Source of the DNA: Bolinopsis microptera
Lineage: Eukaryota; Ctenophora; Tentaculata; Lobata; Bolinopsidae
Reading direction: 5' to 3'
Assembly (NCBI RefSeq): GCF_026151205.1
Contig: NC_087083.1
Span: 15,058,280-15,122,279, forward strand
Length of the DNA stretch: 64,000 nucleotides
Positions within the stretch are counted from its first letter, which is position 1, and each line of letters starts with the position of its first letter. A model generated the notes under the pieces. That model saw only the letters and a program-made list of their open reading frames with translations. It was not told where the DNA came from and searched no databases. The position numbers and the translations under genes are program-made. Positions 5,201 through 55,668 of this stretch are shown in pieces.

Positions 5201-8200
5201 CACTTTATATGCATCTAACAAGATAACTGATAGTTTCAGAGTGTGAAACTAGAATTGAAACCAGTGTGGTCTATGGAACGTACACTTGGACAGCTACAGA
5301 TCCAGAAATACACGCAGAACTGCCATGTTTATATGATGTGAGCACTAATAGTTGGTGTGATTAAGATAACTTAATAAATTAATATTCTGGCTCCTCTTAC
5401 TTGGCCTAGGAACATAGTATATTATAGTGATAATGTATAACCCAGGGTAAGTTTAAAGCTCGCAAGTTCTGCACTGCAAGTGGATTATTCAGTGAGACAG
5501 ACTTTTCAGAGTGCCCTTCTGCTGTTTCAACAATAGTCAGTGACCTGTTGCAGGTATAATATTAATTGTCTGCAATGTTCAGTGACCTGTTGCAGGTATA
5601 ATATTAATTGTCTGCAATGTTCAGTGGGTTCTTTTGCGATAGTCAAAACGCGACAACTAGCGCTGGATGGCGACAACTAGCGCTATCCAGCGCTAGTTGT
5701 CGCCATCCAGCGCTAGTTGTCGCTATCCAGCGCTGGATAACGCTGGCCAGCGCTAAATATATTTGTTCGATAATTGTCGCTATCCAGCGCTAGTTGTCGC
5801 CATCCAGCGCTAGTTGTCGCCATCCAGCGCTAGTTGTCGCCATCCAGCGCTGGTTGTCGCTATCCAGCGCTAGTTGTCGCTGGCTATGCGACACTGTCGC
5901 ACGCGATAGTTTGCGATGGCCAGCGCAACTGGCCATCGCAGAAAACAGTTCGATAACTAGCGCGCTGGCTAGCGCTGGATAGCGACAACTAGCGCTGGAT
6001 GGCGACAACTAGCGCTGGCCAGCGATTGTTGTCGCTATCCAGCGCTAGCCAGCGCTGGCCAGCGCTGGCCAGCGCTAACCAGCGCAAAGTATCAATTTTT
6101 GATAAATTTTCGATAATTTTCGCGACAAATAGCGCTGGATAGCGACAACTAGCGCTGGCCAGCGCTGGCCAGCGCTAAGCGATAGCCAGCGCTGGCCAGC
6201 GCTGGCCATCGATAGCCAGCGCAACATTTTTGCGATATTATTCGTCAGCTAGCGCTGGCCAGCGCTATCCAGCGCTAACCAGCGCTGGCCAGCGCAATGT
6301 ATCAAAATCATATACTTGCGATACTACTCGTCAGCTAGCGCTGGCCAGCGCAATGTATCAAAATCATAAACGTGCGATATTACTCGTCAGCCAGCGCTGG
6401 CCAGCGCAAAATTTTTGCGATATTATTCGTCAGCAAGCGCTGGCCAGCGCTATCCAGCGCTATCCAGCGCTAGCCAGCGCTGACCAGCGCTAGCCAACGC
6501 TAGCCAGCGCTTTGTATCACGTTGTGACACCCACGGTCGTTTCACTAGGTAAACCCCTTTATCGTCCTGACGATACCGGGGGAGCCGCGCACTTCGTGCG
6601 CGGCGGGTCATACAACGTATGACAACCAGCGCTAGCCAGCGCAATGTATCAAAATCATATACTTGCGATATTACTCGTCAGCTAGCGCTGGCCAGCGCAA
6701 TGTATCAAAATCATAAACTTTCGATATTACTCGTCAGGCAGCGCTGGCCAGCACTAACCAGCGCTAGCCAACGCTATCCAGCACTGGCCAGAAACCCCCT
6801 CCCCCTCGATCAGCTGATTACGTAATATGTGATCGATCCCCATCCCAAAGTATCCGTTTTAAATATTTGCGATATCACATGTCGGCGCGCAGTTACTGTT
6901 AGCGCTAGCTAGGATCAATTACAAATTAGCTTACCTGGGGACCTCAAAATATTTTGTTCATATTAATCATAAACATATCCCGAATAGAGATTAGGCGAAA
7001 TGACAGCAGACAGGCTGAGCATGGCCCAGTAAAATTAGTATAAAGGGTCGTTCACATATTACGCAATCAGATAGCTTGTATCACGTTGCGACCCCCACGG
7101 TCGTTTCACTTTATCGTCCTGACGATACAGGGGGGGCCGCGCACTTCGTGCGCGGCGGGTCATACAACGTATGACAACAGATAGCTGAGTGGGTTTTTCA
7201 AATGATGACCCTAATCTCTACTATTGACTATAATTCAGAGAATTATTTCTGATGTAGAATGTTTGTATGTACGACCGCCCACGTGCAAAACAAACGAAAA
7301 ATATGAATTTAGGTAACAACCAAAACGTTCCATAGCAACGGTGTTTTAATGCGCACGTGCACGTGCAAAGATTGTTTTAACGTCATTTTGATCGGTTTTG
7401 TTGTTACTATGTTGTGTTTAAAGTGTTTTATATTTAAATCGGCTGTATCTTCGGTTAGGATGGATATTTTTTGATGCGATTAAAACTTTCTTTTAAAGAA
7501 TACTACTAGCTTCGTCCCTGTTACCACGGGCTTTCTAGTCTCTACTATAATTCAAAGAATTATTTATGTAGAATGTAAAATGTATGTACGACCGCCCATG
7601 TGCAAATTAGATGAGAAATAGGAATTTTCATTGTAACCGTAGTAACTGGGGTTGTTTTACGCACGTGCACTTGTAGGTTAACAACCTACCAGGCTGGACG
7701 TTGTCATACGTTGTATGACCCGCCGCGCACGAAGTGCGCGGCCCCCCCTGTATCGTCACCACCCCCCCTGTATCGTCACCATAGTGAAACGACCGTGGGG
7801 GTCGCAACGTGATACAAGCTGGACGCGCGCCGAGTTGGAACAGATATTTTACGAGTATCACCCGTTAACTATAGTGCAAAGAAACTGCTGCTTAGTTAGC
7901 AGTTAGCCGAAGTTTATTTGCACTATGATCATTTTGTGCATCCAATAAGGTTTCCTGACCTTACTAGGATTCACGATCGAAAAGAGGGCCGCGCATAATA
8001 TATATGTAATAGAATTTAGCGCGTTGAGTAAAGTCTGCTAATATAGCTGTGTATTGCATACTGAGCCACATACTGGGGACCGCAGGCTATCATCTTCATG
8101 AACACAGAAAATAGGAATGAGGCCAAATGACAAATTGAGCTTTACCTAGGGACCCCAGGCTACTATGTTTATAAACATAGAATAGAGATAAACATAGAAT

Positions 8201-11200
8201 AGAGATCCCGCGGAATGACAGGCTGAGCGCCGCCCAGTAAGTTGAGCTCCGCCCAGCTAGTAAGCCAACGCAAGCTGACGATTGTAGATGTACGTTTATA
8301 ACCGTTCCTTTACATATAAATGCGCACCGAGTTGGACTTGGATTTGAAAAAATATTTCCAATTTTACGAGTATCACCCGCGTTAAGCTGACAAGAAATAT
8401 CGCAAATATATTGCGCTGGTCAGTCAGTGTCAGCTGACGATAAATGATATCGCTAATATTTCATTTTGGTATATTGCACTGGCCAGCACTAACCAGCGCT
8501 AGCCATCGATTAATATCGCAAATATTTGATTTTTATAACTTGCACTACCTAGCGCTGGTTGACGAGTAATATTGCAAGTATATGATTTTGATGCATTGCG
8601 CTGGCCAGTGATGGCCAGCGCTGGCTAGCGCTGGCCAGCGCTGGCCAGCGCTAGCTGACGAGTAATATCGCAAACATTTTGCGCTGGCTATCGATGGCCA
8701 GCGCTGGCTAGCGCTGGCTGACGAGTAATATCGCAATTATATGATTTTGATACATTGCACTGGCCAGCGCTAGCTGACGAGTAATATCGCAAACATTTTG
8801 CGCTGGCTATCGTCCGCTATCGATGGCCAGCGCTGGCCAGCGCTGGCTAGCGCTGGCTGACGAGTAATATCGCAATTATAATTATATGATTTTGATACAT
8901 TGCGCTGGCCAGCGCTGGCTGACGAGTAATATCGCAAGAATATGATTTTGATACATTGCGCTGGCCAGCGCTAGCTGACGAGTAATATCGCAAGTATATG
9001 ATTTTGATACATTGCGCTGGCCAGCGCTAGCTGACGAGTAATATCGCAAGTATATGATTTTGATACATTGCGCTGGCTAGCGCTGGCTAGCGCTGGATAG
9101 CGCTGGCCAGCGCTAGCTGACGAATAATATCGCAAAAATGTTGCGCTGGCTATCGATGGCCAGCGCTGGCTATCGCTTAGCGCTGGCCAGCGCTAGTTGT
9201 CGCTATCCAGCGCTATTTGTCGCGAAAATTATCGAAAATTTATCGAAAATTTAACAAAAATTGATACTTTGCGCTGGTTAGCGCTGGCCAGCGCTGGCCA
9301 GCGCTAGTTGTCGCTATCCAGCGCTATTTGTCGCGAAAATTATTGAAAATTTATCAAAAATTGATACTTTGCGCTGGCTAGCGCTGGCTAGCGCTGGATA
9401 GCGACAACAAGCGCTGGCCAGCGCTAGTTGTCGCCATCCAGCGCTAGTTGTCACTATCCAGCGCTAGCCAGCGCTGGCCAGCGCGCTAGTTATCGAACTG
9501 TTTTCTGCGATGGCCAGTTGCGCTGGCCATCGCAAACTATCGCGTGCGACAGTGTCGCATAGCCAGCGACAACTAGCGCTGGATAGCGACAACCAGCGCT
9601 GGATGGCGACAACTAGCGCTGGATGGCGACAACTAGCGCTGGATAGCGACAATTATCGAACAAATATATTTAGCGCTGGCCAGCGTTATCCAGCGCTGGA
9701 TAGCGACAACTAGCGCTGGATGGCGACAACTAGCGCTGGATAGCGCTAGTTGTCGCCATCCAGCGCTAGTTGTCGCGTTTTGACTATCGCAAAAGAACCG
9801 TTCAGTGACCTGTTGCAGGAATAATATTAATTGTCTGCAATGTTCAGTGACCTGTTGCAGGAATAATATTAATTGTCTGCAATGTTCAGTGACCTGTTGC
9901 AGGAATAATATTAATTGTCTGCAATGTTCAGTGACCTGTTGCAGGAATAATATTAATTGTCTGCAATGTTCAGTGACCTGTTGCAGGTATAATATTAATT
10001 GTCTGCAATGTTCAGTGACCTGTTGCAGGTATAATATTAATTGTCTGCAATGTTCAGTGACCTGTTGCAGGTATAATATTAATTGTCTGCAATGTTCAGT
10101 GACCTGTTGCAGGTATAATATTAATTGTGCCTGCAACAGGAAAACCTGGTTGATCTTTGATTTATATCTAAATGTCGATAAGTTTAAACAAAACTAATTG
10201 TCCTGAAAATTGTATCGTCCAAGGAAATTGAGACTGGGTCTTCCGAAACCCAAGAAGAAATGTCTGATGAGATGAAGGACATGACGGCTGTTGAAGGGAG
10301 TAAGCTGAGTTCTTCCGATGTACAAAAAGTTTCCCTGAGTATAGACACATTGATAAATCTACCTGACTCTGAGCTATCAAACAATACTGTTGACAATCTC
10401 ATATCTACGATAGATAACATTCAGACTAACACTGATGTGACAGAACTGCAAGACCAACAAGCCAGCGATGAACTGAGAGAATCTGCAGTTGCAATTATTC
10501 GTGCAGTTGCCCTTCAGAATAATAATGATGTGCTCAAAACAGAAGATTCGATAGGTAAACAGTTTTAAAGTAAAAAGTTTATAATGAAAACAATACCTTG
10601 GCTGTTGAGTGATAAGCGTGATAATAGCACTGCACGTAACTAAGCAAAGGTATTATTTGTTATAATTATGTGTGTAATGTATAGTGCGCAACTGTTATTT
10701 GTTTTGGTTAGCTTCCCCACTGCTTGTCAAGTCGACTGGCAGTTTGTGTTGATAATAATCTGGTAACCTTTGCGGGAAATATCAGTGCTCAGTGTTCACG
10801 ACTTTTCGGGGGTCTAATTCCCGGAGATAAATATAAATATAATGCATATCTTTTTCCAGCAACATTTTAGTATAAAAGGAGGCTTAAAGCACTAGAGTAG
10901 GTATAATAGTTATTTTCTGACGAGTTAATTTGCACTGTGTGACTTACTTATACGGTTCGAAACCAATTCGGTGATACAAAAAATGTATCGAATTTGAAAA
11001 TCGAATTTTGAAGGACATAACTGAACATAGCTACCAAGCTAAGCTACCTTTCTTATACTATTATAATATACTACTATACCTTCCTTACAGATAAGACATC
11101 TCTCAAACTATGTTTGAGGAAAAATTATTTTATATCAAGCAATACGTTAATTTGCACCAAAATGATGGAATAAAACCAAACATTATCAATTCAATATACT

Positions 11201-36806: not shown

Positions 36807-39800
36807 CTCAGGCATGTAGAATGCTATTTTCCTGATACAGCTAATCCTGTCACTCCCTTTTTGGGAGTCAAACAAAATCTTCAAGAGAGCCTGCATTTTC
36901 AAGAAGTCTTTTGTTATCATACTCTGGGCCCGTCTTTGGACCACTTTGATTGCCGGTATTAGGAACAAGGGTAGGCAGGTAAAAGCTGCTAATCCTAGTC
37001 CCACAAATAGCCACCCACCCCATGAATACAGTTGCGCTGCTAGAATACTTGAGATGATGTTTGCTACGTGCATGGAACAGCTAATTATTATTATGAGAAT
37101 TTTGTATTCTTGCAGATAGAGGTCTACCATTTCTCCCTGAAAAAAATATCATATTCAGGTCATATATGTTATAAATGAGGGGGGGGGGGTCTAACCTGAT
37201 TTCCGATATAAGGGTTGATGAGGCCAAAATCGGAATCGAAAAAATCATATATGTTATAAATGAAGGCAAGCCCTCTAGCGTAGCCTTTCACAATTGTCAT
37301 GTTGAGTTAATATCAATAGTATATTTTTTCCAGGCATGGATCCACGGGTTGGGGGTGCAGAATGAGAAACTTTTTTCAGATATTAGACGGTGAATTTGAT
37401 CTATTTTTCAGAGGTGATTTCATCTAAATCACATTCTAGTCAATGAATTTAATAACACGAATGACAAACCACAGCAGTTGAGGAATTCCAGCATAGGACC
37501 CTGGCCTGCACCCCCAAAATGTCTTTGCTGGATCCATGTCTGATGCTGTTGATCTAAGATGACATTTCATATATTAGTAAGGGGAAAAGTGGCATTCCGT
37601 TTGGATTCGAATGTTCACAAGGATTTCTCAACGGAATATGGTAGTTAGGACCCCTACGAACATAATTAGACTTGTTGCCAATTTTGTATCTCAACGGAAA
37701 CACCCTTTTACCACTTTTTACCACCTTTGTGTACCACCTTCTGGTTTTGCCATATATCATTAGTTGTGAACATCATAGAAAGCTGCAAATTAACCTAGAA
37801 TGTTCATCTTATCAAGGAGTAAAACTTTGTATGAAAAATTTTTTACATCGGACAATCAGCTAATTGGATAATTACCAATTAGTTAATCACCAAAAAAAGT
37901 GAAAATTTTTTATTGGCTTAAAATGATTGAAATCGTTTGAAACACGGAGAAATGTAGTTTTAGAAAAACTTCAAAAAATTTTTGACTTAAATTTTTTTTC
38001 GAGACTTGGAAAAAAGTTTGAAAATTTGAACTATTTTTTTCCGCCAAAAGTGATCGAATTGCATGAAACGTGATAAAAATGCTTTGCAGAAAAACTTCGA
38101 AGATTTTTAGATTGAGGAATACTAAAATCATCAAATATTTGAAGTTGGAGTCAGTAAATCTCGACATATTTTAGTAATTAGGAATAGCTTAGCGGAAAGG
38201 CTGGACCTGAAAAAAGGTTAACCCACACAATTTTAGAGTTTCATAACATAATACAATACAGCTTTATCAAATTCCACATAAAGAAACAGCACAAAAGGAC
38301 CATTTAAGATCGAACCGATTTTACCTGCTGTACTATCATTTATTTGATTTTTTCCCAATGCATTCAAAAACCTCCTGTCCCAATTCCTTGGCCAATACTA
38401 TTACCGGGTATCCCTGAAATGGGTAACCTGACCCTCTTATTACCTCTAATAATTTGAACCCCAGTTTTTGTGCAAAGTAAAAATCCGAATTTTTCTCCCA
38501 ACAGGGGTTGTTTTCTGTTAAACTGTGCCACTTTTTTGGTCACTCTCGCATACCTCCGCAAGAGGCCCTGGGGAAATATTTTATAAAGGGGGGGTTAATA
38601 GGAACGAGTGTAAAATATACCCTTACAATCATCCATTTGCCTGTTTTTTTTTGTGTATTGTGGGGAATGCCCCGCAGGCCGCTTCGTTTTTGCTTTATGC
38701 CATATACCTCGAATAACCACCCCATAAGGGTCCATTGCCAGGGTCCGGGATTAAGCTTGGAGGATAAAGCCATGAAAAAGGTTTTGCCTAGAAATAGCCT
38801 AGCATTTAGAGTAAAAACCTGGGTGGGTAAGCCTGGGGTGGTGGCTAGCATGGATGTAGCAGAACGTAGCTACACGGGGTTTCATTGGAGTGGTTATTTT
38901 AATGGCCAAAGAGTGCCGGAACTAATGTTACTAAGATTGCAGTTGAGGGGCAGTGTAAACCACGGTGTAGTCAGGGACACAGAGCTACAGTGCAGGAGTA
39001 CTGCAAAAGAACAGTGCAAGTGATACAGTCTGCAACAGTAAAACTCCGAAGAAGGAGATAAGATTGTGGCTGCAGAGGAGGAGAGTAGCTGGAACCTGAT
39101 TGTGTTTGTGTTGACTGAAGAGGAGGAAGAAGAGTTTCCTGCTCTGGTAACTGCATTTTTGGAATAGGTGGGGTGAGAACTAATTTTCAAGCGACAAGGG
39201 GTGGGCTGGAAGCAACCAGATACAGCTATCCGACCTATTAAGATCCACCGTCCTGAGCCTTAACAGCATTTTTCATCAGAATCTGATGAAAACAGAGAGA
39301 CTGACCAGTAGTATGTAATATGGTACCGCTGTATCACCTAAAAGTGAGGCACCTGATTTTGTGTATAATTACATAATTTAACCCTAATCAGTGGTGATTT
39401 TTGCTAATCCTAATTGTTAATTGTATACACTAACCCTAATTAGGAGTGTTTATTCCTCATTAACATTTGGCTAATTTGGGGAGACCATACTATTACACTG
39501 AGGCTAACCCTAGATAACAATTATGTAGTGTGTACTGTAACTTGAACACTGCGTATGTTGCATGAGAATTGAGAAAGTATATACAATAGTTATTGTCAGA
39601 AGCTTTTAAGCACACCTGTTCATATTATATAAAGGAGCAAGTGCTGGGGGAGCATTTTGCACATCTAATCACAACCTTTATATACTTTCTAATGGAAAAG
39701 TCATTATTTGTAATACGGGAGTATCATGTAAGTGTTAACTTGTGACACACAGAAAGTTTTTTCTTATTACCTTTTAGCTTTCTAATAAGGACTGATGTTG

Positions 39801-42800
39801 ACCTTTGGGGATATTTCTAAGTTGTCAGACCGTGAACTAAGAGAGAAGTTAATACCTAAACCTGGATCTAGTACTGAGACTCCGAGGAAAGTATACAAGG
39901 TGCAATTGTTTAACCTAAAGCTCGATTTTCTGGATCAGGATTAAGTTGAATACTGACCCATGATTGCATCTGTATGGATACTCAAAGTCACAACACCTGT
40001 TGATGTGACAAAAGAATCAGCCAGTTTTGATGAGTTGCACTTGAAATATCTTATCGATCAATTTGACACATCTGACCGAATGAATTATTATTATTGTGTG
40101 TCAACAGTATGACATAGTACACAGCATGCAGTATAGGAGAGCAGCAAATTAATCAATCGTGTTAATATGAGTGAACATTATTTTAAATAATGTGTTAAGA
40201 TCACTAAAACAGTAAATTTCTCAACCCCCAATAAATCGGCTATATAAGGAACTCATAAACAGGATCATTTCATAATTAACGCGCTACGATACGCTTCATT
40301 GTTTTTTTTTAGAGCTTATTAACTTTTGTGACATCGCGTAAAACAAAACAAAAAACGTCCTATATAAAGGGGGACTCTATACAGTTTAAGTCACTTCACG
40401 TTTGACTAGTAACGCTATGTCAAAGATGGTGTACTCCCACAAATGTAACCATTGTTACAAGTCTTTTAAAACTTCACGAAGCTTAGCGTCACACAAATAC
40501 AAATTTCATTCTGACACACGTTCAGTTAATAAAGACTGCAGAAATCTTGATAATTTTTCTATCAATAGTGATATTGAATCAGTCTCTGTAACAAGTGAGA
40601 CATCAGTTTCATTAGCTCTACGTGAATTGAAAGATCTCATGAAAATTGTACAACAAAGAAACGACAAACAAGAGGACAAATTGAGGGAATTGGATGCTAA
40701 GATATTCTCGCTGGAGTATAGTAAACGTGATGATCTTCCTACACCAATGAATTACAATCACGACAACACCAATGAGATAAAGTGGGAGACTAAAAGACAA
40801 TCTGAACGAATAGGAGATCTTGAAAGAAAAATAAAAGATTAGAGCAATCTTGTGAAGATGAAATGGATCAATCGTTTGTCAAAACAGTGGAGGATGCAAC
40901 CAACGTTCAGCAATTATTCCAAAGCAATGACGTGGGAGCAATCCAGAAACAAATAGTAGCTCTAAAGAATGGAGTTCTTTTACTTCTTGACAATTTTGAT
41001 CATAGTCCTGAAATAGAAAACCTGTTGCGACGAATATATGATGCTTCATTTAAAGAGGCTCAAGAAATCGTGCACAAAAATTTCTTTGCTCTACAAAAAG
41101 CTTTTACTTCTGTCTCGTTTGAGCAAAAACCTAATTTTGAAAATGAAGATGAATCGGACGAAAACGAAGAATCTCAAAATGATGAGACTACAGATCAAAC
41201 TGAAAACGATGATTCAGAAGGTTCAAGCGATGAAATAGAGGAAGAAAATTCAGCTGATGAGACTCAGACAGAATATTATACTAGTGATAATTCAGACATT
41301 GAAGATTCGAATTGAAGAAGGGACTATGGATAATTGAATACTCAATATTCGACTTTTCTTTCTTTTTTTTTAATTTAGAATTACGTATTAATTTAAAAAT
41401 ATTGTAGCGAGGGATTTTTTTAAATTGTTATTCGATATATTCAATTCTTTTTTAGTATTAAAAAACTATTTCTTTTATTGTCATGAAATACACAAAAGAC
41501 TAAACAAACTTCATAAATCAATTTCAATTTGCAAATAAGTAAAACATATAGTAATTCCACAATATAGATGCAAAAACCATAAACCCGGTGATATCACCCA
41601 TATCACCCGGTGATATCACCCATATCACCCGGTGATATCACCCGTATCACCCGGTGATATCACCCGTTAAAACATATAGATAATTCCACAATATAGATGC
41701 AAAAACCATAAACCCGGTGATATCACCCATATCACCCGGTGATATCACCCGTATCACCCGGTGATATGTTATTTTCCTGCTACTTTTGATCATTCAAAAT
41801 GATAAAATTTAAGAAAAAGCTGCCCGGACGAGCTCAGTGTACATGCTTTGTTAGTTATTACAGCGTGGTTACTATGTTCATATATATTGGAACAGTGCAT
41901 ATAATCGAAAGTATGTATCCAGACATGTGTATGTGTTCGACCAGAGTTCGTTTCAAAGTTTACAGCTCTCACACAACTCAGTTTAGTGGGCATTCCCACA
42001 ATTATTTGAGATGGAAATGAGTGGAGAGAATGCTCTCCTGATTCCGTATTTTCTCGGGAGCCAACCCCGAACAGTGATATAGCTGACTCATGGTACTGGA
42101 GATAGGCTAAGATCTCTCTAACCGAACCGTCAGCATCAGCCATATCACAGAAATTTTTGTGTGTTTTTGAGTTTTGTAAGAGCTGCAGACCCTGGATTCG
42201 AACCTGGGACCTTCAGATATTTTTATTCATTTCAAGCTTTCAAGGTGGGAAATTAGTGCTCTGAGCTAATTCCAGGCCATCCCAGTTAGAATTCATGTGT
42301 ACTTATAGACTGAAATAACGATACAATGAGCAATGTTTGTCTAATGACTGGCCCTCAGCAAGGCTCGAACACTCTACCTCGAGGCTAATTAGTAGAGTGA
42401 TCACAGCTGCACGCCACGGGAGGGCCGTATGAACTAAATAACATTGCTTTATATACGTCATGTATAGCTTCCATCTTTGTGAGGCACTACGTTTGTTGCA
42501 TACAAATATATACAATAGTTATTGTCATAAGCTTTTAAGCACACCTGTTCATATTATATAAGGGAGTAAGTGCTGGGGGAGCATTGTGTACATCTAATTA
42601 CAACATGTTTATATGTTGACTGATGGAAAAGCCCTTATTTGTAACACAGGAGTATCATGTGGGTGCTATGTTGTAACACACGTTTATTGTCAAAAAAATT
42701 ATTTCGAGATGGCAATCAATTCTCAAAACCAAAGAGTTTTTTGTTGTTGTCGTGAGCGTGTTAATTTTGTATGTGCTAGCTAAATTTAACTAGAGTGTAC

Positions 42801-45800
42801 AGTTTAGGACAACACCTGGTTGATATGGTAACGTAATGAGAAAGCACTTTTCAGGACGGTTACTCAGTAGTACCAAGATTGTACCGTCATTGTAAAGTAA
42901 AGTTACGGCAACAGCTGTGTTTGTACTTGACAGATATTTACTTAATTTAAGAATCAAATAAAACTAAAGTGAATTGATAAAAATGTAACTTTCTTAAAAG
43001 AAAAACATGTCAACAAAATGTAGAAGCTGATAAATATATAGTGTACTCGATCACGTATTACACTGACTGTTTGATATGAAATGTAATTTATAGAGAGTAC
43101 TTACAGGACGGTTACTTTACAGCCTCAAGAACAATATGTCATTGTATAATAGCCATAGACCTAGTACAGAATAGTCACGATAGCAGCTGTGCAATGTATT
43201 TGACTCAAATCTCTTGTCAGGACTGGTCTAGATATTTTATATTTTCTACAATTATATCAGAAGATCTCAACAAATTGAACAGTGTGCGAGGAATTTTTAA
43301 ATATAATAATCAATGAATGATGTTGTTAATTCTTACCTCAATTAGTGGACCGTCCCTTTACATTAGAACTCAGTGTTTGTCTTTGTTAAATATCTTGATT
43401 AGGTATAATTACGAACAGGTGCGTGTTTTACTGGACAGTCTCTATCTTCTTCATATCTTGAGGTCTTAGCTTTAGGTAAGCGACAACTGGATCAAAGTTA
43501 ATTCCTACCCTCCCTCCCTACCCTACCCCCTCCAGGGGTAGGAAAGGAGGGAGGGAGGGTAGGAATTAACTTTGATCCAGTTGTCGCTTACCTAAAGCTA
43601 AGACCTCAAGATATGAAGAAGATAGAGACTGTCCAGTAAAACACGCACCTGTTCGTAATTATACCTAATCAAGATATTTAACAAAGACAAACACTGAGTT
43701 CTAATGTAAAGGGACGGTCCACTAATTGAGGTAAGAATTAACAACATCATTCATTGATTATTATATTTAAAAATTCCTCGCACACTGTTCAATTTGTTGA
43801 GATCTTCTGATATAATTGTAGAAAATATAAAATATCTAGACCAGTCCTGACAAGAGATTTGAGTCAAATACATTGCACAGCTGCTATCGTGACTATTCTG
43901 TACTAGGTCTATGGCTATTATACAATGACATATTGTTCTTGAGGCTGTAAAGTAACCGTCCTGTAAGTACTCTCTATAAATTACATTTCATATCAAACAG
44001 TCAGTGTAATACGTGATCGAGTACACTATATATTTATCAGCTTCTACATTTTGTTGACATGTTTTTCTTTTAAGAAAGTTACATTTTTATCAATTCACTT
44101 TAGTTTTATTTGATTCTTAAATTAAGTAAATATCTGTCAAGTACAAACACAGCTGTTGCCGTAACTTTACTTTACAATGACGGTACAATCTTGGTACTAC
44201 TGAGTAACCGTCCTGAAAAGTGCTTTCTCATTACGTTACCATATCAACCAGGTGTTGTCCTAAACTGTACACTCTAGTTAAATTTAGCTAGCACATACAA
44301 AATTAACACGCTCACGACAACAACAAAAAACTCTTTGGTTTTGAGAATTGATTGCCATCTCGAAATAATTTTTTTGACAATAAACGTGTGTTACAACATA
44401 GCACCCACATGATACTCCTGTGTTACAAATAAGGGCTTTTCCATCAGTCAACATATAAACATGTTGTAATTAGATGTACACAATGCTCCCCCAGCACTTA
44501 CTCCCTTATATAATATGAACAGGTGTGCTTAAAAGCTTATGACAATAACTATTGTATATATTTGTATGCAACAAACGTAGTGCCTCACAAAGATGGAAGC
44601 TATACATGACGTATATAAAGCAATGTTATTTAGTTCATACGGCCCTCCCGTGGCGTGCAGCTGTGATCACTCTACTAATTAGCCTCGAGGTAGAGTGTTC
44701 GAGCCTTGCTGAGGGCCAGTCATTAGACAAACATTGCTCATTGTATCGTTATTTCAGTCTATAAGTACACATGAATTCTAACTGGGATGGCCTGGAATTA
44801 GCTCAGAGCACTAATTTCCCACCTTGAAAGCTTGAAATGAATAAAAATATCTGAAGGTCCCAGGTTCGAATCCAGGGTCTGCAGCTCTTACAAAACTCAA
44901 AAACACACAAAAATTTCTGTGATATGGCTGATGCTGACGGTTCGGTTAGAGAGATCTTAGCCTATCTCCAGTACCATGAGTCAGCTATATCACTGTTCGG
45001 GGTTGGCTCCCGAGAAAATACGGAATCAGGAGAGCATTCTCTCCACTCATTTCCATCTCAAATAATTGTGGGAATGCCCACTAAACTGAGTTGTGTGAGA
45101 GCTGTAAACTTTGAAACGAACTCTGGTCGAACACATACACATGTCTGGATACATACTTTCGATTATATGCACTGTTCCAATATATATGAACATAGTAACC
45201 ACGCTGTAATAACTAACAAAGCATGTACACTGAGCTCGTCCGGGCAGCTTTTTCTTAAATTTTATCATTTTGAATGATCAAAAGTAGCAGGAAAATAACA
45301 TATCACCGGGTGATACGGGTGATATCACCGGGTGATATGGGTGATATCACCGGGTTTATGGTTTTTGCATCTATATTGTGGAATTATCTATATGTTTTAA
45401 CGGGTGATATCACCGGGTGATACGGGTGATATCACCGGGTGATATGGGTGATATCACCGGGTGATATGGGTGATATCACCGGGTTTATGGTTTTTGCATC
45501 TATATTGTGGAATTATCTATATGTTTTACTTATTTGCAAATTGAAATTGATTTATGAAGTTTGTTTAGTCTTTTGCGTATTTCATGACAATATTAATAAA
45601 AGAAATAGTTTTTTTTTTAAATACTAAAAAGAATTGAATATATCGAATAACAATTTAAAAAAATCCCTCGCTACAATATTTTTAAATTAATACGTAATTC
45701 TAAATTAAAAAAAAAAGAAAGAAAAGTCGAATATTGAGTATTCAATTATCCATAGTCCCTTTCTTCAATTCGAATCTTCAATGTCTGAATTATCACTAGT

Positions 45801-48800
45801 ATAATATTCTGTCTGAGTCTCATCAGCTGAATTTTCTTCCTCTATTTCATCGCTTGAACCTTCTGAATCATCGTTTTCAGTTTGATCTGTAGTCTCATCA
45901 TTTTGAGATTCTTCGTTTTCGTCCGATTCATCTTCATTTTCAAAATTAGGTTTTTGCTCAAACGAGACAGAAGTAAAAGCTTTTTGTAGAGCAAAGAAAT
46001 TTTTGTGCACGATTTCTTGAGCCTCTTTAAATGAAGCATCATATATTCGTCGCAACAGGTTTTCTATTTCAGGACTATGATCAAAATTGTCAAGAAGTAA
46101 AAGAACTCCATTCTTTAGAGCTACTATTTGTTTCTGGATTGCTCCCACGTCATTGCTTTGGAATAATTGCTGAACGTTGGTTGCATCCTCCACTGTTTTG
46201 ACAAACGATTGATCCATTTCATCTTCACAAGATTGCTCTAATCTTTTTATTTTTCTTTCAAGATCTCCTATTCGTTCAGATTGTCTTTTAGTCTCCCACT
46301 TTATCTCATTGGTGTTGTCGTGATTGTAATTCATTGGTGTAGGAAGATCATCACGTTTACTATACTCCAGCGAGAATATCTTAGCATCCAATTCCCTCAA
46401 TTTGTCCTCTTGTTTGTCGTTTCTTTGTTGTACAATTTTCATGAGATCTTTCAATTCACGTAGAGCTAATGAAACTGATGTCTCACTTGTTACAGAGACT
46501 GATTCAATATCACTATTGATAGAAAAATTATCAAGATTTCTGCAGTCTTTATTAACTGAACGTGTGTCAGAATGAAATTTGTATTTGTGTGACGCTAAGC
46601 TTCGTGAAGTTTTAAAAGACTTGTAACAATGGTTACATTTGTGGGAGTACACCATCTTTGACATAGCGTTACTAGTCAAACGTGAAGTGACTTAAACTGT
46701 ATAGAGTCCCCCTTTATATAGGACGTTTTTTGTTTTGTTTTACGCGATGTCACAAAAGTTAATAAGCTCTAAAAAAAAACAATGAAGCGTATCGTAGCGC
46801 GTTAATTATGAAATGATCCTGTTTATGAGTTCCTTATATAGCCGATTTATTGGGGGTTGAGAAATTTACTGTTTTAGTGATCTTAACACATTATTTAAAA
46901 TAATGTTCACTCATATTAACACGATTGATTAATTTGCTGCTCTCCTATACTGCATGCTGTGTACTATGTCATACTGTTGACACACAATAATAATAATTCA
47001 TTCGGTCAGATGTGTCAAATTGATCGATAAGATATTTCAAGTGCAACTCATCAAAACTGGCTGATTCTTTTGTCACATCAACAGGTGTTGTGACTTTGAG
47101 TATCCATACAGATGCAATCATGGGTCAGTATTCAACTTAATCCTGATCCAGAAAATCGAGCTTTAGGTTAAACAATTGCACCTTGTATACTTTCCTCGGA
47201 GTCTCAGTACTAGATCCAGGTTTAGGTATTAACTTCTCTCTTAGTTCACGGTCTGACAACTTAGAAATATCCCCAAAGGTCAACATCAGTCCTTATTAGA
47301 AAGCTAAAAGGTAATAAGAAAAAACTTTCTGTGTGTCACAAGTTAACACTTACATGATACTCCCGTATTACAAATAATGACTTTTCCATTAGAAAGTATA
47401 TAAAGGTTGTGATTAGATGTGCAAAATGCTCCCCCAGCACTTGCTCCTTTATATAATATGAACAGGTGTGCTTAAAAGCTTCTGACAATAACTATTGTAT
47501 ATACTTTCTCAATTCTCATGCAACATACGCAGTGTTCAAGTTACAGTACACACTACATAATTGTTATCTAGGGTTAGCCTCAGTGTAATAGTATGGTCTC
47601 CCCAAATTAGCCAAATGTTAATGAGGAATAAACACTCCTAATTAGGGTTAGTGTATACAATTAACAATTAGGATTAGCAAAAATCACCACTGATTAGGGT
47701 TAAATTATGTAATTATACACAAAATCAGGTGCCTCACTTTTAGGTGATACAGCGGTACCATATTACATACTACTCTGACCCACCCTTTTTAGATCCAACG
47801 GAACCCTTTATATAAATCAACTTTTCCGCATGAATTACTTCATGGTATCTTCTTATCAAGGCCACAGACCTTGCCGTACCGGATTTATTAATCAAAGTGA
47901 GTCACTTTAGCCCTCTTCTTCTTTAGAGCTTTAGGTTAGTGATCAAACTCTTCGCTACTCGCTCTTCACTGGATCTATCAGGACAGATTCACATCTTTTT
48001 AGGTCTCAACCAGCCTTAGTTTTCCTGTTTTCATCATGTAGTACGTTCTGCTACCTCCATTTTAGCACCACCCAGCTTCCATCAGTTCACTCTAAGTCTA
48101 GCTTCGTCGGCGTTTTACTGTTGCAGACTGTATCACTTGCACTGTTCTATTGCAGTACTCCTGCACTGTAGCTCTGTGTCCCTGACTACACCGTGGTTTA
48201 CACTGCCCCTAAACTGCAATCTTAAGTAACTTTAGTTCCGGCACTCTTTGGTCATTAAAATAACCAACTCCAATGAAACCCCGTGTAGCTACGTTCTGCT
48301 ACATCCATGCTAGCACCACCCAGCTACCACCAGTTTACTCTAAATCTAGCTATTTCTAGCAACTTTTCAATGCTATCTCCAGCTCTATCCCGACCCTGGC
48401 AATGACATATGGGGTTATTCGAGGTATATGGCATAGCAAACGAAGCGGCATGCGCATTCACAATACAAAAAAGCCACAATGGATGATGGAAGGTATATTT
48501 ACACTCGCTTCCTATACCCCCCCTATAATACCAGGCCTCTTGCGAGTTGCGAGAGTGACAAAAAGTGCACAGTTTAAAGAAACCCCTGTGAGAAATCGCA
48601 TTTCTTGCACAACTGGGTCTAATTATAGAGGTAAATAAGAGGTCCGGTACATTCAGATACCCGGTATAGATTGGCAAGATTGACAGAGGTTTTGATCATT
48701 GAAATCAATACAATGATAGTACAGCAGGTAAAATCGGTTCGATCTTAAATGGTCCTTTTGTGCTGTTTCTTTATGTGGAATTTGATAAAGCTGTATTGTA

Positions 48801-50489
48801 ATTAGTTATGAAACTCTAATATTGTGTGGTTAACCTTTTTCAGGTCCAGCCCTTTCCGCTAAGCTATTCCTAATTACTAAAATATGTCGAGATTTACTGA
48901 ACTCCAACTTCAAATATTGATGATTTTAGTATTCCTCAATCTAAAAATCTTCGAAATTTTTCTGCAAAGCATTTTTATCCACGTTTCATGCAATTCGATC
49001 ACTTTTGGCGGAAAAAATATTTTCAAATTTTCAAACTTTTTTTCAAGTCTCGAAAAAAAATTTTAAGTCAAAAATTTTTGAAGTTTTTCTAAAAACTACA
49101 TTTCTCCGTGTTTCAAACGATTTCAATCATTTTGAGCCAATAAAAAATTTTCACTTTTTTTGGTGATTAACTAATTGGTAATTATCCAATTAGCTGATTG
49201 TCCAATGTAAAAATTTTTGTAACAAAAGTTTTACTCCTTGATAAGATAAACATTCTAGGTTAATTTTCAGCCTTCTACGACGTTCACAACTAAAGATATT
49301 TGGCAAACCAGAAAAGTGGTACAAAGGTGGTAAAAAGTGGTAAAAGTGGTGTTTCTGTTGAGATACAAAATTGGCAACAAGTCTAATTATGTTCGTAGGG
49401 GTCCTAACTACCATATTCCGTTGAGAAATCCTTGTGAACATTCAAATCCAACGGAACCCTTAAATCGACCACTTTTCCCCTTACTATATATTCAATTCGC
49501 CATAAGTAGATATATGATTATCTTTCTAAATTTATATCTGTATTGCTTCTTAGAAACGAGGTATATAAACCCGCTCATAGACCAACGTGACAACACAATA
49601 TAATATAATTAGAATATATTACCTGCAAAAGCAATACTAGCAAGCCAGTTGTCAATCCCTGGAGTGACCTCAATACGGAAATTATTACGAACGCCAGTCG
49701 ACCATCCGGATACCTTTCCAAAACCAGGTCTAGAACTCCCATCAGGGCTAGAAAAAGTGCATTGAGAAAGAACAGTACTGCACATCTTGTGATGACAGGA
49801 CTTTGTGTTATGGCCTTTGGAAAGAACCGAAACAGATACGGACTCACCGCTGTAGTAATAAGTGTCATCGAGATCGCAATGGTACCTTTTGAAATGAAGA
49901 ATTGAATGTTTACAAAATGAAATAGAGATAAATAGATATAATTATTCAATTTTGTTCAAAAATAATCTAAAATTTTTGCCTTCCACGAGGTTATCTGCCT
50001 TACATTTTAAGGAGAGTTAAAGTGGTGTAATTAAGTATTGAGTCCCGGATTCACAAAATTCAAATTAATATTCCTTACCGATGGTGCTGTTTAAATTCCT
50101 CTTCTTTAAGAACTCAAAATAGAATCCGCTAGTAAAGTTTCTAGTTGCCATGGCTGCCATACAACCCATACAGGAAAACAGAACAATAATTGCCAGCTCC
50201 CAACTCCTCAGTCTATTTGTACCTGCGATGAAGATAGTGTTATCGTGGTTAAAATTCGTACCACTCGCCTGCTAATCATTGACATACTCATAGTCTATTT
50301 TTCTGTTTCACTATCGTTCTTACCATAGCGTTCAATTCCTTTTTTCTCGCTATTTTTCGAATTAACATTTTGAACCGTTCCATAATTTGCTATTACTCTG
50401 TCCTTCATGCCGACATTTTTCTGAAAGAATTTTAAATGTCCATCAATCATTGCCCTGTTTTGCCATAAAGCAGTGGTCAACTCAGACAT
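36807..50489 (-). CDS. MFS transporter, N-terminal half (SLC18B1-like)
   Basis: Membrane transporter of the major facilitator superfamily. Minus-strand exons: 50324-50489 (ATG start, hydrophilic N-terminus), 50079-50222 (TM1, WELAIIVLFSCMGCMAAMA), 49623-49885 (TM2-TM4, ending SLQGLTTGLLVLLLQ), 36807-37136 (TM5-TM6, MHVANIISSILAAQLYSWGG, then the central cytoplasmic loop). Phases are 1, 1, 0 and agree at each junction. The SGFYF...IGTIAISMTLITTAVSPYLF and LRSLQG patterns resemble vesicular-amine-like SLC18B1 members; substrate unknown. The intron between the last two exons is about 12.5 kb and contains the nested inverted repeats. The end of exon 36807 is inferred from GAG|GTAGCA. Later exons would fall in the degraded region. 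Confidence 0.75.
37137..37568. other. MFS intron sequence outside the inverted repeats
   Basis: A short direct repeat (ATATATGTTATAAATGA near 37162 and 37247) flanks a poly-G tract. No coding sequence seen. Confidence 0.5.
38930..39300 (+). mobile_element. LINE ORF1-like fragment, left
   Basis: Similar to the ORF1-like sequence at 58490-58830: the shared stretch includes CAGAGCTACAGTGCAG, AACAGTGCAAGTG, GTGGCTGCAGAGGAGGA and AACCTGATTGTGTTTG. It is interrupted and ends exactly at the 6-bp duplication of the Polinton-type element. Confidence 0.6.
39583..39760 (+). repeat. About 175-bp sequence repeated within each arm (copy 1)
   Basis: This stretch (TACAATAGTTATTGTC, CACACCTGTTCATATTATAT, AAGTGCTGGGGGAGCA) recurs in the same direction at 42510-42695, and mirror copies lie at about 44390-44570 and 47325-47500. 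A TATA-like TTATATAAAGG is inside, so it may be a promoter-bearing repeat. Confidence 0.7.
40355..40416 (+). promoter_or_regulatory. TATA-box promoter of the left-arm ORF
   Basis: CCTATATAAAGGGGG lies at about 40358-40372, roughly 50 nt before the ATG at 40417, with a pyrimidine-rich CTCTATACAG start-like region. The mirror copy lies at about 46665-46725. Confidence 0.5.
40417..41315 (+). pseudogene. Left-arm copy of the C2H2/coiled-coil ORF of the Polinton-type element
   Basis: Mirror copy of the open frame at 45765-46664. It encodes the same zinc finger, coiled coil and acidic tail but is broken about once, so it is not one continuous frame. It shares the upstream TATA-like sequence with its partner. 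As part of a defective element it is treated as a fossil. Confidence 0.65.
41585..41770. repeat. Palindromic GGTGATATCACC minisatellite, left arm
   Basis: About eight copies of the perfect 12-bp palindrome GGTGATATCACC, spaced by CCCATATCACCC or CCCGTATCACCC. The array is split by a short duplicated segment (ATAGATGCAAAAACCATAAA). Confidence 0.85.
42182..42283 (-). repeat. tRNA-like pol III module, left arm
   Basis: Mirror of 44783-44884, with a perfect B box GGTTCGAATCC and an A-box-like TAGCTCAGAGC. It is probably a SINE head. Confidence 0.5.
42350..42426 (-). repeat. Second tRNA-like module, left arm
   Basis: Mirror of 44641-44716: GGCCCTC ends can pair as a 7-bp acceptor-like stem. Confidence 0.45.
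43490..43576. repeat. Centre of the 8.47-kb palindrome
   Basis: The arms meet at AATTCCTACCCTCCCTCC / GGAGGGAGGGTAGGAATT around a spacer of roughly 30 nt (43519-43547) rich in C and G. The homopurine/homopyrimidine bias may help extrusion or reflect the recombination that made the palindrome. Confidence 0.85.
44641..44716 (+). repeat. tRNA-like module 1, right arm
   Basis: 76 nt with a 7-bp acceptor-like stem GGCCCTC/GAGGGCC, a CTCTAC/GTAGAG anticodon-like stem and a TGTTCGAGCC B-box-like element. The D and T arms do not fold canonically, so it is not called as a functional tRNA. Confidence 0.5.
44783..44884 (+). repeat. tRNA-like module 2, right arm
   Basis: A-box-like TAGCTCAGAGC at 44799-44809 and perfect B box GGTTCGAATCC at 44863-44873, with wide spacing. 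Together with module 1 it looks like a tRNA-derived SINE captured by the element before the arms were mirrored. Confidence 0.55.
45300..45485. repeat. Palindromic GGTGATATCACC minisatellite, right arm
   Basis: Mirror of 41585-41770, with the same 12-bp palindrome and spacers. Confidence 0.85.
45765..46664 (-). CDS. Right-arm ORF of the Polinton-type element: C2H2 finger, coiled coil, acidic tail (299 aa)
   Basis: Open frame from ATG at 46664. One C2H2 zinc finger lies at residues about 12-33 (C-x2-C-x12-H-x4-H), then a Ser/Thr-rich linker, a charged coiled-coil region at about 70-155, a mixed helical region to about 235, and a very acidic Glu/Asp/Ser-rich C-terminus. A TATA-like element lies just upstream. 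Function unknown; the layout suggests a DNA-binding, self-associating protein. No similarity to capsid, polymerase or integrase was recognised. It is part of a defective element and treated as a fossil, although this copy reads open. Confidence 0.65.
   Translation of the reverse strand: MSKMVYSHKCNHCYKSFKTSRSLASHKYKFHSDTRSVNKDCRNLDNFSINSDIESVSVTSETSVSLALRELKDLMKIVQQRNDKQEDKLRELDAKIFSLEYSKRDDLPTPMNYNHDNTNEIKWETKRQSERIGDLERKIKRLEQSCEDEMDQSFVKTVEDATNVQQLFQSNDVGAIQKQIVALKNGVLLLLDNFDHSPEIENLLRRIYDASFKEAQEIVHKNFFALQKAFTSVSFEQKPNFENEDESDENEESQNDETTDQTENDDSEGSSDEIEEENSADETQTEYYTSDNSDIEDSN
47775..48230 (-). mobile_element. LINE ORF1-like fragment, right
   Basis: The minus strand matches two separate parts of the 58490-58930 ORF1-like sequence. 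The later part is at about 47880-48030 (AGACTAAGGCTGG-like, GATAGATCCAGTGAAGAGCG, LVTDLK region) and the earlier part is at about 48120-48225. Orientation is opposite to the left fragment. Confidence 0.55.
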
Positions 50490-51257: not shown

Positions 51258-54200
51258 ATGTTCTATAACATGGTTTCTTTTCAGTGCCGACAGCCGCTGA
51301 AGACGACAGAGAACACGGTGCCTCCTGTTACGGGAAAAAGAAGAAAGGTAACGAAGCAGTCCAGCACGCCCCGCAGTGAGAACTTCAGCAAACCCAGAAG
51401 TGCTCATGAAAGTGGGGACCTGCCCATGGAGCTGAAGAAAATAACAAACAGTAGTGTTAATACCAGGTGAGGCTACTGGCTGCGTACTTACTTTGGTTAC
51501 TTTGGTTGTGTTTATCCTCGTAGCAGGACGGGTCATCAGATTTCTGACCACCTCGATGGCGAGTAGTCTACCAGGGAATTAGACCAGCTGCAGCTATAAC
51601 CGGGAGTCGGAGGGTTGTCCGGTATCAAAGCAATAAACTTGGACAAACTAACTTTAAACGACTCAAAAGTAGCTTCAGCTTTAATACCATCAGGCACTTT
51701 GTTCCATAGTTTTGGTCCTCTCACAGCGAATGAGCTATCATAGAGTGTCTGGTTGCTCGAGGAACTCAACCTAGACAGGGAAGGGATGATTGCTCGGTTA
51801 CCATGTCTGGATGTTTTTGTGAACCTAATATTGCTGCAATTGGGGACAACATCGTGAAGGATCTTCCACATCATCAGAATGGTGTACTGTTCCCTTCTGC
51901 GCTGCAGTGACATCAGCTTTAGATGTGAAAGCCTCTCCCAGTAGTTGTCCGGGCAGATTGAACTACTAATAAAATTCAACATTTAAACTGATCCTGTTAT
52001 TGAAGTTTCACTGTTACCTATTAAACCCAGATAACCATCTTAAGTAAAGAGTATAAAAACAATAGTTTCATACTTGTGTACTATACATGTTTACTATACT
52101 TGTGTACTATACTTGTGTACTATACATTTTTACTATACGTGTGTACTATACATGTGTACTATACTTGTGTACTATACATTTTTACTATACGTGTGTACTA
52201 TACATGTGTACTATACTTTTTTAATATACGTGTGTACTATACATGTGTACTATACATGTTTACTATACGTGTGTACTATACTTTTTATTATACATGTGTA
52301 CTATACATGTGTACTATACGTGTGTAATATACATGTGTACTATACGTGTGTACTATAAGTGTGTACTATACATGTCTACTATACATGTGTACTATACATG
52401 TGTACTATACATGTGTACTATACATGTGTACTATACATGTGTACTATACATGTGTACTATACATGTGTACTATACATGTGTACTATACATGTGTACTATA
52501 CATGTGTACTATACATGTGTACTATACATGTGTACTATACATCATGTGTACTATACGTGTGTACTATACATGTGTACTATACATGTGTACTATACATGTG
52601 TACTATACATGTGTACTATACATGTGTACTATACATCATGTGTACTATACGTGTGTACTATACATGTGTACTATACATGTGTAATATACATGTGTACTAT
52701 ACATGTGTACTATACATGTGTACTATACATCATGTGTACTATACGTGTGTACTATACATGTGTACTATACATGTGTACTATACATGTGTACTATACATGT
52801 GTACTATACATGTGTACTATACATCATGTGTACTATACGTGTGTACTATACATGTGTACTATACATGTGTACTATACATGTGTACTATACATGTGTACTA
52901 TACATCATGTGTACTATACATGTGTACTATACATGTGTACTATACATATGTACTATACATGTGTACTATACATCATGTGTACTATACGTGTGTACTATAC
53001 ATGTGTACTATACATGTGTACTATACATGTGTACTATACATGTGTACTATACATGTGTACTATACATCATGTGTACTATACATGTGTACTATACATGTGT
53101 ACTATACATGTGTACTATACATGTGTACTATACATGTGTACTATACATGTGTACTATACATGTGTACTATACATGTGTACTATACGTGTGTACTATACAT
53201 GTGTACTATACTTGTGTACTATACATGTGTACTATACTTGTGTACTATACATGTGTACTATACATGTGTACTATACATGTGGGTTAATAATATTACTCAT
53301 CAGGAGAGCCCGCACTCCACCTACTGCCTCCTCCAAGCGCCTACAGCTTCTCAACAACCAGCCTGAAAAGCGTTCCAGAAAAGAGCCAACGTTGAACGAC
53401 TCAAAACCAGAGGTTGTCCAGATTCCAGATAAACTTACTGTTGGAAAAAGGAAAGGCAATATCACTTCAAAAGTTGTTAAGGTAGTCCCAGTCTTTAACA
53501 GCCTTAAGGGGGCAAACCCCAAATCTGTCCAGACCTAATGACCTCATAGGCAGTTCAGTGACCTTCTAGCGCACCGTTTCCACACAAAAAAAATCATTTT
53601 GAGAATTCCCATTTTTGTAATCGACCATTTCCTGGTTAAGAGTGCAATTTTCGGAAATAATTATTTTGTGGTTGAGACGCTATAAGTTAATCATTTCTTG
53701 CGGTATCGGGTTGAAATTTTGCTCGCCCTTTATTCACATCTATTTCAATGTGTGTGTAAAATCTTGATATCGTATCTAAAAAGGCTGGTGTGTTATGAAT
53801 TTTTAAAGTCAAAAAGCTAAAATTGTCCTTTTCAGGCTTATTTTAACAAAAAGTCAGTCAGGGAAGATCGGATTGATTTGATGCTTGACATCAAATTGTT
53901 CTCTGAATTCTGGCGCAGATTTTGATGCCCTCAAAAATGTTTTTACTCATTCCCCTTCAGATCTATTGGACCTCAAAGCCAAACAACAAATTTAGGCACA
54001 TTTTTCGTTTTTAATATATACCGATTTTTCTAAAATTTTGATAGGAATGTGCTAGTGACTTTTTGAAGGGTGCAAAATAACCGCAACTAGCACATTTATA
54101 CATGAGTTATGAACAACAAAACACCCTAACATGCTTCCCTTTGAAGTTATGGGAGAAAATGTGATTTTTTGGCTTTGCAGATGAAAAATCACATTTTCTC

Positions 54201-55668
54201 CCATAACTTCAAAGGGAAGCATTTTAGGGTGTTTTGTGGTTCATAACTCATATATAAATGTGCTAGTTGCGGTTATTTTGCACCCTTCAAAAAGTCACTA
54301 GCACATTCCTATCAAAATTTTAGAAAAATCGGTATATATTAAAAACGAAAAATGTGCCTAAATTTGTTGTTTGGCTTTGAGGTCCAATAGATCTGAAGGG
54401 GAATGAGTAAAAACATTTTTGAGGGCATCAAAAACTGCGCCAGAATTCAGAGAACAATTTGATGTCAAGCATCAAATCAATCCGATCTTCCCTGACTGAC
54501 TTTTTGTTAAAATAAGCCTGAAAAGGACAATTTTAGCTTTTTGACTTTAAAAATTCATAACACACCAGCCTTTTTAGATACGATATCAAGATTTTACACA
54601 CACATTGAAATAGATGTGAATAAAGGGCGAGCAAAATTTCAACCCGATACCGCAAGAAATGATTAACTTATAGCGTCTCAACCACAAAATAATTTTTTCC
54701 GAAAATTGCACTCTTAACCAGGAAATGGTCGATTACAAAAATGGGAATTCTCAAAATGATTTTTTTTGTGTGGAAACGGTGCGCTAGAAGGTCACTGAAC
54801 TGCCTATGAGGTCATTTGGTCTGGACGGCACAAACCACTGTTTTGGTGTATGCCCCCTTAATATCAATGTTTAAAATTTTGATCGTTTTCATCAATTTTC
54901 GTGGCAGTAATGTTCAGAAACTTTCACATATTACGTAAGCGGCACAGGGAGGAAAGAGTTATGTAACAAGAAATGCGGCCGCTTTTCTTTTGTGGATGGC
55001 TGCTCCATTTCCCGATCCGTGATGGCGTATTTTATCATATTCCGTACAACCTGGGGACCCCTGGCTTTACTGTTTATACTTCATAAGCATGCAAATATGG
55101 CGGAGTGATAGGCCGAGCGCCGCCCAGTTAATTCTATATTGAATCTGAAAATCGTATACATTTCTATGTAACCATATGTTTATGCAACCTGATATTACAC
55201 GGATATGTGCAAAATAGTAATACTAACTCGAAATAATATGCTATCAATTAGTGCCTAGTGGGATACCTACACGGTGAAATTAACGATTTACTTGATCGCC
55301 AATAATAATTTAATTCAGAATATCTCGCAAAATAACTTTACTATACTGTGAGAAGATGAAGATCAGACCTCGTTATTTGCGCAGTTATATTAGGAACGTG
55401 GGCGACATACTCGCAAGCTACCGTATACGGAAAAAACTCGTTCGCTAACCCTTGCCTTCAGCACAGAAGTCATGGATCGGGAAAAAATGCTAACAGGGAG
55501 TCTCATTGGCACTGTTACTAACATTTTCGTGAACCGCTGCTACAATTAAAATTCTGCTCAGATAAAAAAATCGGCAGCACCAAAAAAGTCTCAAGGACCG
55601 AAGAAAGCAGGAATTGAGGCGCCTTTACCGGTGAACTCCGTGATTGTGAACTCCACTCAGAAAACAAA
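51258..55668 (+). CDS. VRK exons 1-3: Lys/Arg-rich N-terminal extension
   Basis: Three exons encode about 155 low-complexity basic residues, including [22 protein letters not shown] and [16 protein letters not shown], before the kinase domain. VRK1 of vertebrates has only a short N-terminus and its basic segment at the C-terminus, so this basic part seems relocated or added. It may act in nuclear import or DNA binding. The start ATG at 51258 is read through the acceptor-like TTTTCAG at 51278-51284 without a stop; an upstream coding exon cannot be excluded. Confidence 0.65.

Follow-up and report, generated by a model that had tools for sequence, protein, structure and literature searches.

A 64,000-nt stretch of the genome of the ctenophore Bolinopsis microptera (C12:15058280-15122279, hereafter the window) contains an 8.5-kb element that starts with AGTAGT at position 39307, ends with ACTACT at position 47774, and is composed of two mirrored arms around a short centre. 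This element probably belongs, as a mirrored and non-autonomous copy, to a family of AGTAGT...ACTACT transposons that depends on a family-B DNA polymerase (PolB), and hairpin or U-turn copying would re-mirror its arms; the probability of this reading is estimated at about 0.55. It is built on features read from sequence: the family with its ends and target site duplications (TSDs), a two-gene partner encoding PolB, the prevalence of the mirrored form, the identity of the arms, the G-rich centre, and the shared joints. The mechanism that would connect them is extrachromosomal replication by a protein-primed PolB (pPolB) with turn-back of the growing strand.

The window element is a genuine insertion. 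When its flanks are rejoined with one TSD removed, they align unbroken over 3456 and 3470 nt with 94% identity to L049 and L050 (L-numbers designate loci), two other copies of the foldback repeat into which the element was inserted. Because the joined flanks align in one piece to other copies of the host repeat, the insertion is regarded as real. The host is a separate high-copy foldback repeat, and the element is located in its spacer. The left arm of the host repeat has at least 47 matches in the searched assembly (264.65 Mb, 232 contigs), and the intact copies L049 and L050 are ~3.3 kb in length with arms of ~1.36 kb that are 98.8-99% identical. The arms of the window element are inverted copies of each other with 99.6% identity, separated by one substitution (arm position 2186) and seven indels, of which most fall in homopolymers or short repeats. 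They include inverted repeats of 1968 and 1530 nt with 100% identity, and thus the mirroring cannot be attributed to chance. The initial annotation had described AG...CT ends, a 6-bp duplication CTGACC, and near-identical arms around a spacer of about 30 nt; all of these were confirmed, with the spacer measured as 28 nt. It had also suggested an element made only of terminal inverted repeats (TIRs) that duplicates its cargo gene head-to-head, and the presence of a C2H2/coiled-coil gene on both arms supports this. The C2H2/coiled-coil open reading frame (ORF) is indeed the sole recognized gene type in the element, which lacks PolB; a 117-aa frame without any Pfam match is present on both arms too.

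The search of the same genome for elements sharing these ends, as the initial annotation had proposed, revealed a family that includes other mirrored copies. Scoring 40 of 80 candidates gave at least 46 matches to the terminal 594 bp of the window element, many of them as inverted pairs. In the window and 38 retrieved stretches together, 20 elements could be delimited; in the undelimited stretches the ends were not reached, or the stretch contained middle pieces or other repeats. All 20 start with AGTAGT(A/G)T. The terminus scan sought AGTAGT, and arm ends found with BLAST only coincide there in many elements as well. An exact 6-bp TSD is present in 18 of the 20, 5 of 6 positions match in L038, and L020/21 shows no TSD at the expected place; with L020/21 left out, there is one mismatch in 114 TSD base pairs. 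A rescan without the TSD requirement added internal mirrored pairs only, and the L019 pair, which is also internal, was dropped.

Mirroring is widespread in the family and is not an oddity of a single copy. In eleven of the 20 delimited elements it covers 80% or more of the length, a fraction that is biased since many loci were picked from paired hits. The remaining ones, apart from the PolB-bearing elements with TIRs of ~430 bp, are partial, rearranged, or interrupted. The C2H2 protein of the B type provides a sample not picked for pairing, in which short fragments are included: 127 matches were found in 69 loci, with an inverted pair at 39, a single gene at 30, and a same-strand pair at none. 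For the A type, to which the window element belongs, a hand tally gave inverted pairs at 13 of 19 loci, where one pair has only a partial second copy and several matches are at 27-29% identity.

Some individual copies have additional features. The mirrored copy L051, from another family, shares its TSD, CTGACC, with the window copy, which may be chance among 19. In one rearranged element, a frame of 593 aa encodes a 2OG-Fe(II) oxygenase domain (L014, 1107-2885). Reverse transcriptase frames inside L016 and L052 and a zinc-knuckle frame, just below cut-off, inside L042 partly explain the extra length of these loci.

Relatives with the same termini that bear a PolB gene do exist. L011 (C10:10242363-10251421, 9.06 kb, TSD CAGGAT, TIR 428 bp) carries a PolB frame of 1245 aa and, on the opposite strand, the window-type C2H2 gene, with the 22-bp array between them. 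Its ORFs of at least 110 aa are PolB, one antisense to PolB, and C2H2, plus one crossing the left end. The assignment to PolB is indicated through the Pfam model PF03175 (50.0 bits in the genome search and 53.8 bits in the segment scan, cut-off 25.8) and by short exonuclease and polymerase motifs, taken from general knowledge, in the expected order. The PolB also includes an EndoVII-like segment below cut-off. A scan of IMG/VR with PolB returned no relatives. The PolB-bearing L011, L015-17, and L020/21 have TIRs of only ~430 bp with 95-97% identity, and L011 and L020/21 are ~9-10 kb with PolB and C2H2 as their only long genes. The 20.6-kb locus C13:4660314-4681100 (L015-17) was considered as a full-length Polinton and rejected; it is a 9-kb two-gene element in which ~11 kb, including a reverse transcriptase gene, separates two parts of PolB. 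With 37 of 216 candidates scored, PolB of at least 50% identity was found at 12 or more loci, comprising at least four inverted pairs and eight single genes, some of the latter broken. Three of the inverted pairs each carry two open frames of 1261 aa. PolB palindromes are located at C9:660-676 kb, C7:6.69-6.71 Mb, and C9:6.59-6.61 Mb. As inverted pairs were found for each of them, mirrored versions of both PolB and C2H2 exist, carried by different elements.

The arms of the family, judged by their divergence, behave like long terminal repeats (LTRs). In the first 1.25 kb of 10 B-type copies, the two arms of one copy are 99.4-100% identical, while the identity to the best other copy is 87.6-100%, and B-type copies can differ among themselves by 12% or more. 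In the B-type tree, the arms of L036, L037, L038, and L039 form well-supported pairs, those of L048 and L051 are identical pairs, and those of L047 are paired with support values of 92/83. Among the six mirrored copies in the A-type tree, the arms of the window copy, L012, and L019 are well-supported pairs, and those of L009/10 are paired with 94/94. The TSD mismatch rate (1/114) is of the same order as the arm divergence. Most simply, the two arms would have been made from a single template when the element was last copied. In L019 both arms carry the identical C2H2 frameshift, and the window arms share their joint; copying of a change from one arm to the other would produce such a pattern.

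Both window arms are mosaics whose joints, 41767/41768 on the left and 45299/45300 on the right, occupy equivalent sites; the first of these also occurs inside the arms of L009/10. The features of the element are listed in Table 1. In L043-L046 the inner module X begins at one and the same base, and there its edge is fused to different sequence within mirrored arms. AGTAGT occurs in the window arm at positions 1 and 3560 only, and no AGTAGT terminus is present at the joint. The 117-aa frame of module X is also open in L043, L045, and L046. Stretches resembling tRNAs were spotted by eye near this frame; ARAGORN (bacterial code) called no tRNA.

Table 1. Features of the mirrored element and its host repeat (positions in the window).
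Feature	Position	Strand	Remarks
Left TSD CTGACC	39301..39306	.	Terminus scan, empty site
Left arm, 4213 nt	39307..43519	+	AGTAGT at start
Outer module, left arm	39307..41767	+	Matches right half of PolB-bearing L011 (TIR, C2H2 gene, 22-bp array)
C2H2/coiled-coil gene, left copy	40417..41315	+	Frameshifted at ~40832; 1-nt A-run indel
22-bp repeat array, palindromic core GGTGATATCACC	41583..41767	.	L012 inversion centre; beside L013 centre
Inner module X	41768..43519	+	Common to L043, L044, L045, L046
117-aa open frame in module X	41790-42143 and 44924-45277	- and +	Both arms; no Pfam match
Apex, G-rich 25-mer	43504..43528	-	G4-type motif
Asymmetric centre, 28 nt	43520..43547	.	Hairpin loop region
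Right arm, 4227 nt	43548..47774	-	ACTACT at end
C2H2/coiled-coil gene, right copy	45765..46664	-	Intact, 299 aa; Pfam zf-C2H2 below cut-off
Right TSD CTGACC	47775..47780	.	Terminus scan
Host foldback repeat, left arm (flank)	37590..39054	+	
Host foldback repeat, right arm (flank)	48102..49456	-	

Two kinds of centres are recurrent. The inversion centre of L012 is the palindromic 22-bp array, and L013 also turns at the array. In the L013 centre, 104 nt repeat the subterminal segment of the same element exactly, which looks like the footprint of a template switch. One G-rich tract lies between the arms of the window copy, L037, L039, L041, L043, L044, and L053. The apex 25-mer was found at nine sites in 265 Mb with up to one mismatch, and its reversed control at none. 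All nine sites are between mirrored arms or genes, two of these loci being known by coordinates alone. C11:19575433 was considered as an unmirrored, apex-bearing parent and rejected, since a C2H2 pair flanks the apex there too. In L044, L045, and L046 the two arms do not end at the same point of X but at points separated by 260-304 nt; unequal arm ends are expected where palindromes are processed in the chromosome. Separately, the L036 spacer (2716-3047) and the left part of the L051 spacer contain a similar small element of ~330 bp with inverted ends of its own, which sits at or beside the centre of these two different palindromes.

The C2H2 gene is open in most of the arms read. The ratio of nonsynonymous to synonymous substitutions (dN/dS) is 0.15-0.19 in three close-copy pairs of the B type (Fisher p 0.0004-0.0013) and 0.39 in two distant pairs; one close B-type pair shows 1.33 on six changes. 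In the A type it is 0.36-0.8, based on few changes; comparisons involving L019, whose C2H2 gene is frameshifted, are not valid. These ratios suggest that, in the B type at least, the C2H2 gene is constrained even in elements that lack PolB, and this may point to a function in cis. A structural model of the protein (mean pLDDT 55.7, pTM 0.32), too weak for a fold search, suggests long helices only. That the C2H2 protein acts as a terminal protein is a guess. According to the accessible part of a published analysis (PMC4046053), the terminal proteins of protein-primed replicons are often encoded upstream of PolB or fused to it, so the N-terminus of PolB is a rival candidate.

The following mechanism is proposed for this family. 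Starting at the ends, pPolB would replicate the element outside the chromosome. On arriving at a centre prone to hairpin formation, either the palindromic 22-bp array or the G-rich apex, a strand would turn back and copy itself, and both arms, originating from a single template, would acquire the same end, gene, and joints. The mirrored molecule may fold into a hairpin and be copied again, in which case every round would re-homogenize the arms. The triplet repeat of the AGTAGT terminus would fit protein priming that begins with a jump-back. The terminal repeat CATCAT of adenovirus is used in jump-back protein priming. Integration with a 6-bp stagger would be performed by an integrase supplied in trans, the EndoVII-like segment being a less likely alternative. 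A bolder version is put forward tentatively, as a possibility short of an even chance: the mirror may be the normal genome, a hairpin palindrome copied by pPolB with a conserved G-rich apex, carrying two copies of C2H2 or two of PolB on separate elements, with arms that serve as LTR-like clocks and with the C2H2/coiled-coil gene, for example for a terminal protein, retained without PolB for its action in cis.

Several observations weigh against the PolB-dependent mirroring proposed here. The assembly-based analysis yielded no sign of an extrachromosomal form, a hairpin, or a terminal protein, and the integrase would have to come from outside the elements read. The identification of PolB is not uniform: hmmscan of the whole L011 protein omits PF03175, no polymerase match was obtained from PHROGs, NCBIfam, or PDB sequences, and phmmer against PDB returned zinc fingers only. 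The arm pairs of L041 in the B-type tree and of L044 in the A-type tree are unsettled, the arms of L040 and L052 are shared between copies, and in L013 the left arm has 99.9% identity to other copies but 99.6% to the right arm of the same element. The whole-arm identity in mirrored copies is lower, 96.4-99.9%. The nine apex sites do not represent nine independent events, because the copies may descend from one mirrored ancestor. A single, unmirrored gene was found at 30 of 69 C2H2 loci and 8 of 12 PolB loci, and the lack of a TSD in L020/21 belongs to the same list.

The main rival is that these are ordinary long-TIR DNA transposons of the foldback type, moved by a transposase in trans, and that gene conversion within the chromosome maintains the identity of their nearly adjacent arms after insertion. 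Closely spaced inverted repeats are good substrates for gene conversion, and another foldback repeat, the one flanking the window element and represented by L049 and L050, is present in the genome. The structural definition of foldback elements applies, as inverted repeats make up most of the element; it is a structural label and not a lineage. As in FB, Galileo, and Tetris, long TIRs form nearly the entire element. Galileo, first seen as long TIRs alone, proved to belong to the P superfamily, as stated in the accessible text of PMC3573991, whereas the partner here is a DNA polymerase element with the same ends and each arm carries a protein gene. Pfam scans, which covered a subset of the ORFs, detected no transposase domain. 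The almost undecayed TSDs make the copies look young, and identical arms therefore need no conversion. The mosaic joints and the L019 frameshift, present on both arms, also argue against conversion, and this rival is judged rather unlikely.

A canonical Polinton/Maverick that lost its inner genes and became non-autonomous is a considerably weaker candidate. The initial annotation had called the element Polinton-type, and part of this stands: AG...CT ends and a 6-bp TSD are the defining marks of Polintons, both are present here (the TSD exact in 18 of 20), and L011 encodes a family-B polymerase of the organellar/viral type, for which protein priming is predicted. The EndoVII-like segment of this polymerase has a counterpart in the PolB of insect Mavericks, according to the accessible part of PMC5803895. 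In addition, an rve ORF of 407 aa lies 5.9 kb from a divergent piece of PolB at G000:C1:345153-352706, so true Polintons may exist in this genome; this locus is perhaps one and could be the integrase source. The family is nevertheless not classified as Polinton, because it departs from canonical Polintons in integrase, packaging ATPase, and length. Instead of 15-20 kb, the window copy is 8.5 kb and L011 is 9.06 kb. No integrase or capsid gene is visible among the L011 ORFs, and no long ORF is left over for an adenovirus-type protease or capsid (models for capsid and protease were not searched). Among the 150 of 394 rve candidates scored, none is within 16 kb of the 12 PolB loci. Pox_A32, the single model used for the packaging ATPase, gave no match genome-wide. 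The idea of a Polinton reduced to its arms was not supported, since the PolB-bearing relatives read with these ends are themselves ~9-10 kb with only PolB and C2H2 as long genes.

It is very improbable that X was a palindrome that jumped into the centre of an L012-like palindrome: X is shared with L043-L046 and its edges meet the array that is the L012 centre, but these edges have no AGTAGT/ACTACT terminus and join different sequences within the mirrored arms of L043-L046, and nested insertion was rejected on account of the missing termini. Perfect palindromes are classic artefacts, yet hairpin reads or mis-joined contigs can hardly be the explanation here, since the mirror ends exactly at the element termini between differing flanks with an exact TSD and an existing empty site, the arms carry private differences and are unequal at the centre in L044-L046, and mirrored pairs with differing centres occur at many loci.

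Among known systems, the family resembles the self-synthesizing transposons and would be a variant among PolB transposons. Self-synthesizing transposons (Polintons and casposons) have their own family-B polymerase, TIRs, and TSD (PMC4046053, accessible part). The family shares with them the PolB gene in relatives, the TIRs, and the TSD, and is known here from genes alone; mirrored genomes and LTR-like arms are not described in the accessible part of that article. The likeness to Polintons/Mavericks extends to the AG...CT ends, the 6-bp TSD, and the same type of polymerase with an EndoVII-like segment, and the difference lies in the 9-10-kb, two-gene PolB relatives and in the many mirrored copies whose TIRs are the whole element. 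Protein-primed replicons reportedly give palindromes with the same end twice in the yeast hairpin plasmid and in palindromic adenovirus minigenomes. Those palindromes are sporadic defective forms, unlike the mirrored state here, which is common and integrated in chromosomes, and is known from sequence. A literature search of titles and abstract openings returned no report of mirrored PolB transposons.

Other repeats are present in the window. Positions 53527-54169 and 54184-54826 form a near-perfect palindrome without AGTAGT ends (643-nt arms, 99%, 14-nt spacer). Nested inverted repeats, 2-4 kb apart, occupy 5627-9799; two Rfam MIR474 matches fall in these inverted repeats (5.6-9.8 kb) and were taken as chance. 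An open frame with Cys-rich tandem repeats of the AGKFSAAGSATCSEC type at 1478-2353 is probably part of a host gene, and a long tandem array at 52225-53538 is open in three forward frames.

A two-gene PolB transposon is indicated in a ctenophore. If the proposed reading is true, the genomes of protein-primed transposons would come in a second form, a palindrome that mirrors itself and is common and passed on by inheritance, not a defective by-product, and Polinton-type replicons would be linked to foldback elements. Insertions could then be dated from the divergence of their arms, and the family would offer a natural system for the tolerance of long palindromes in animal genomes.

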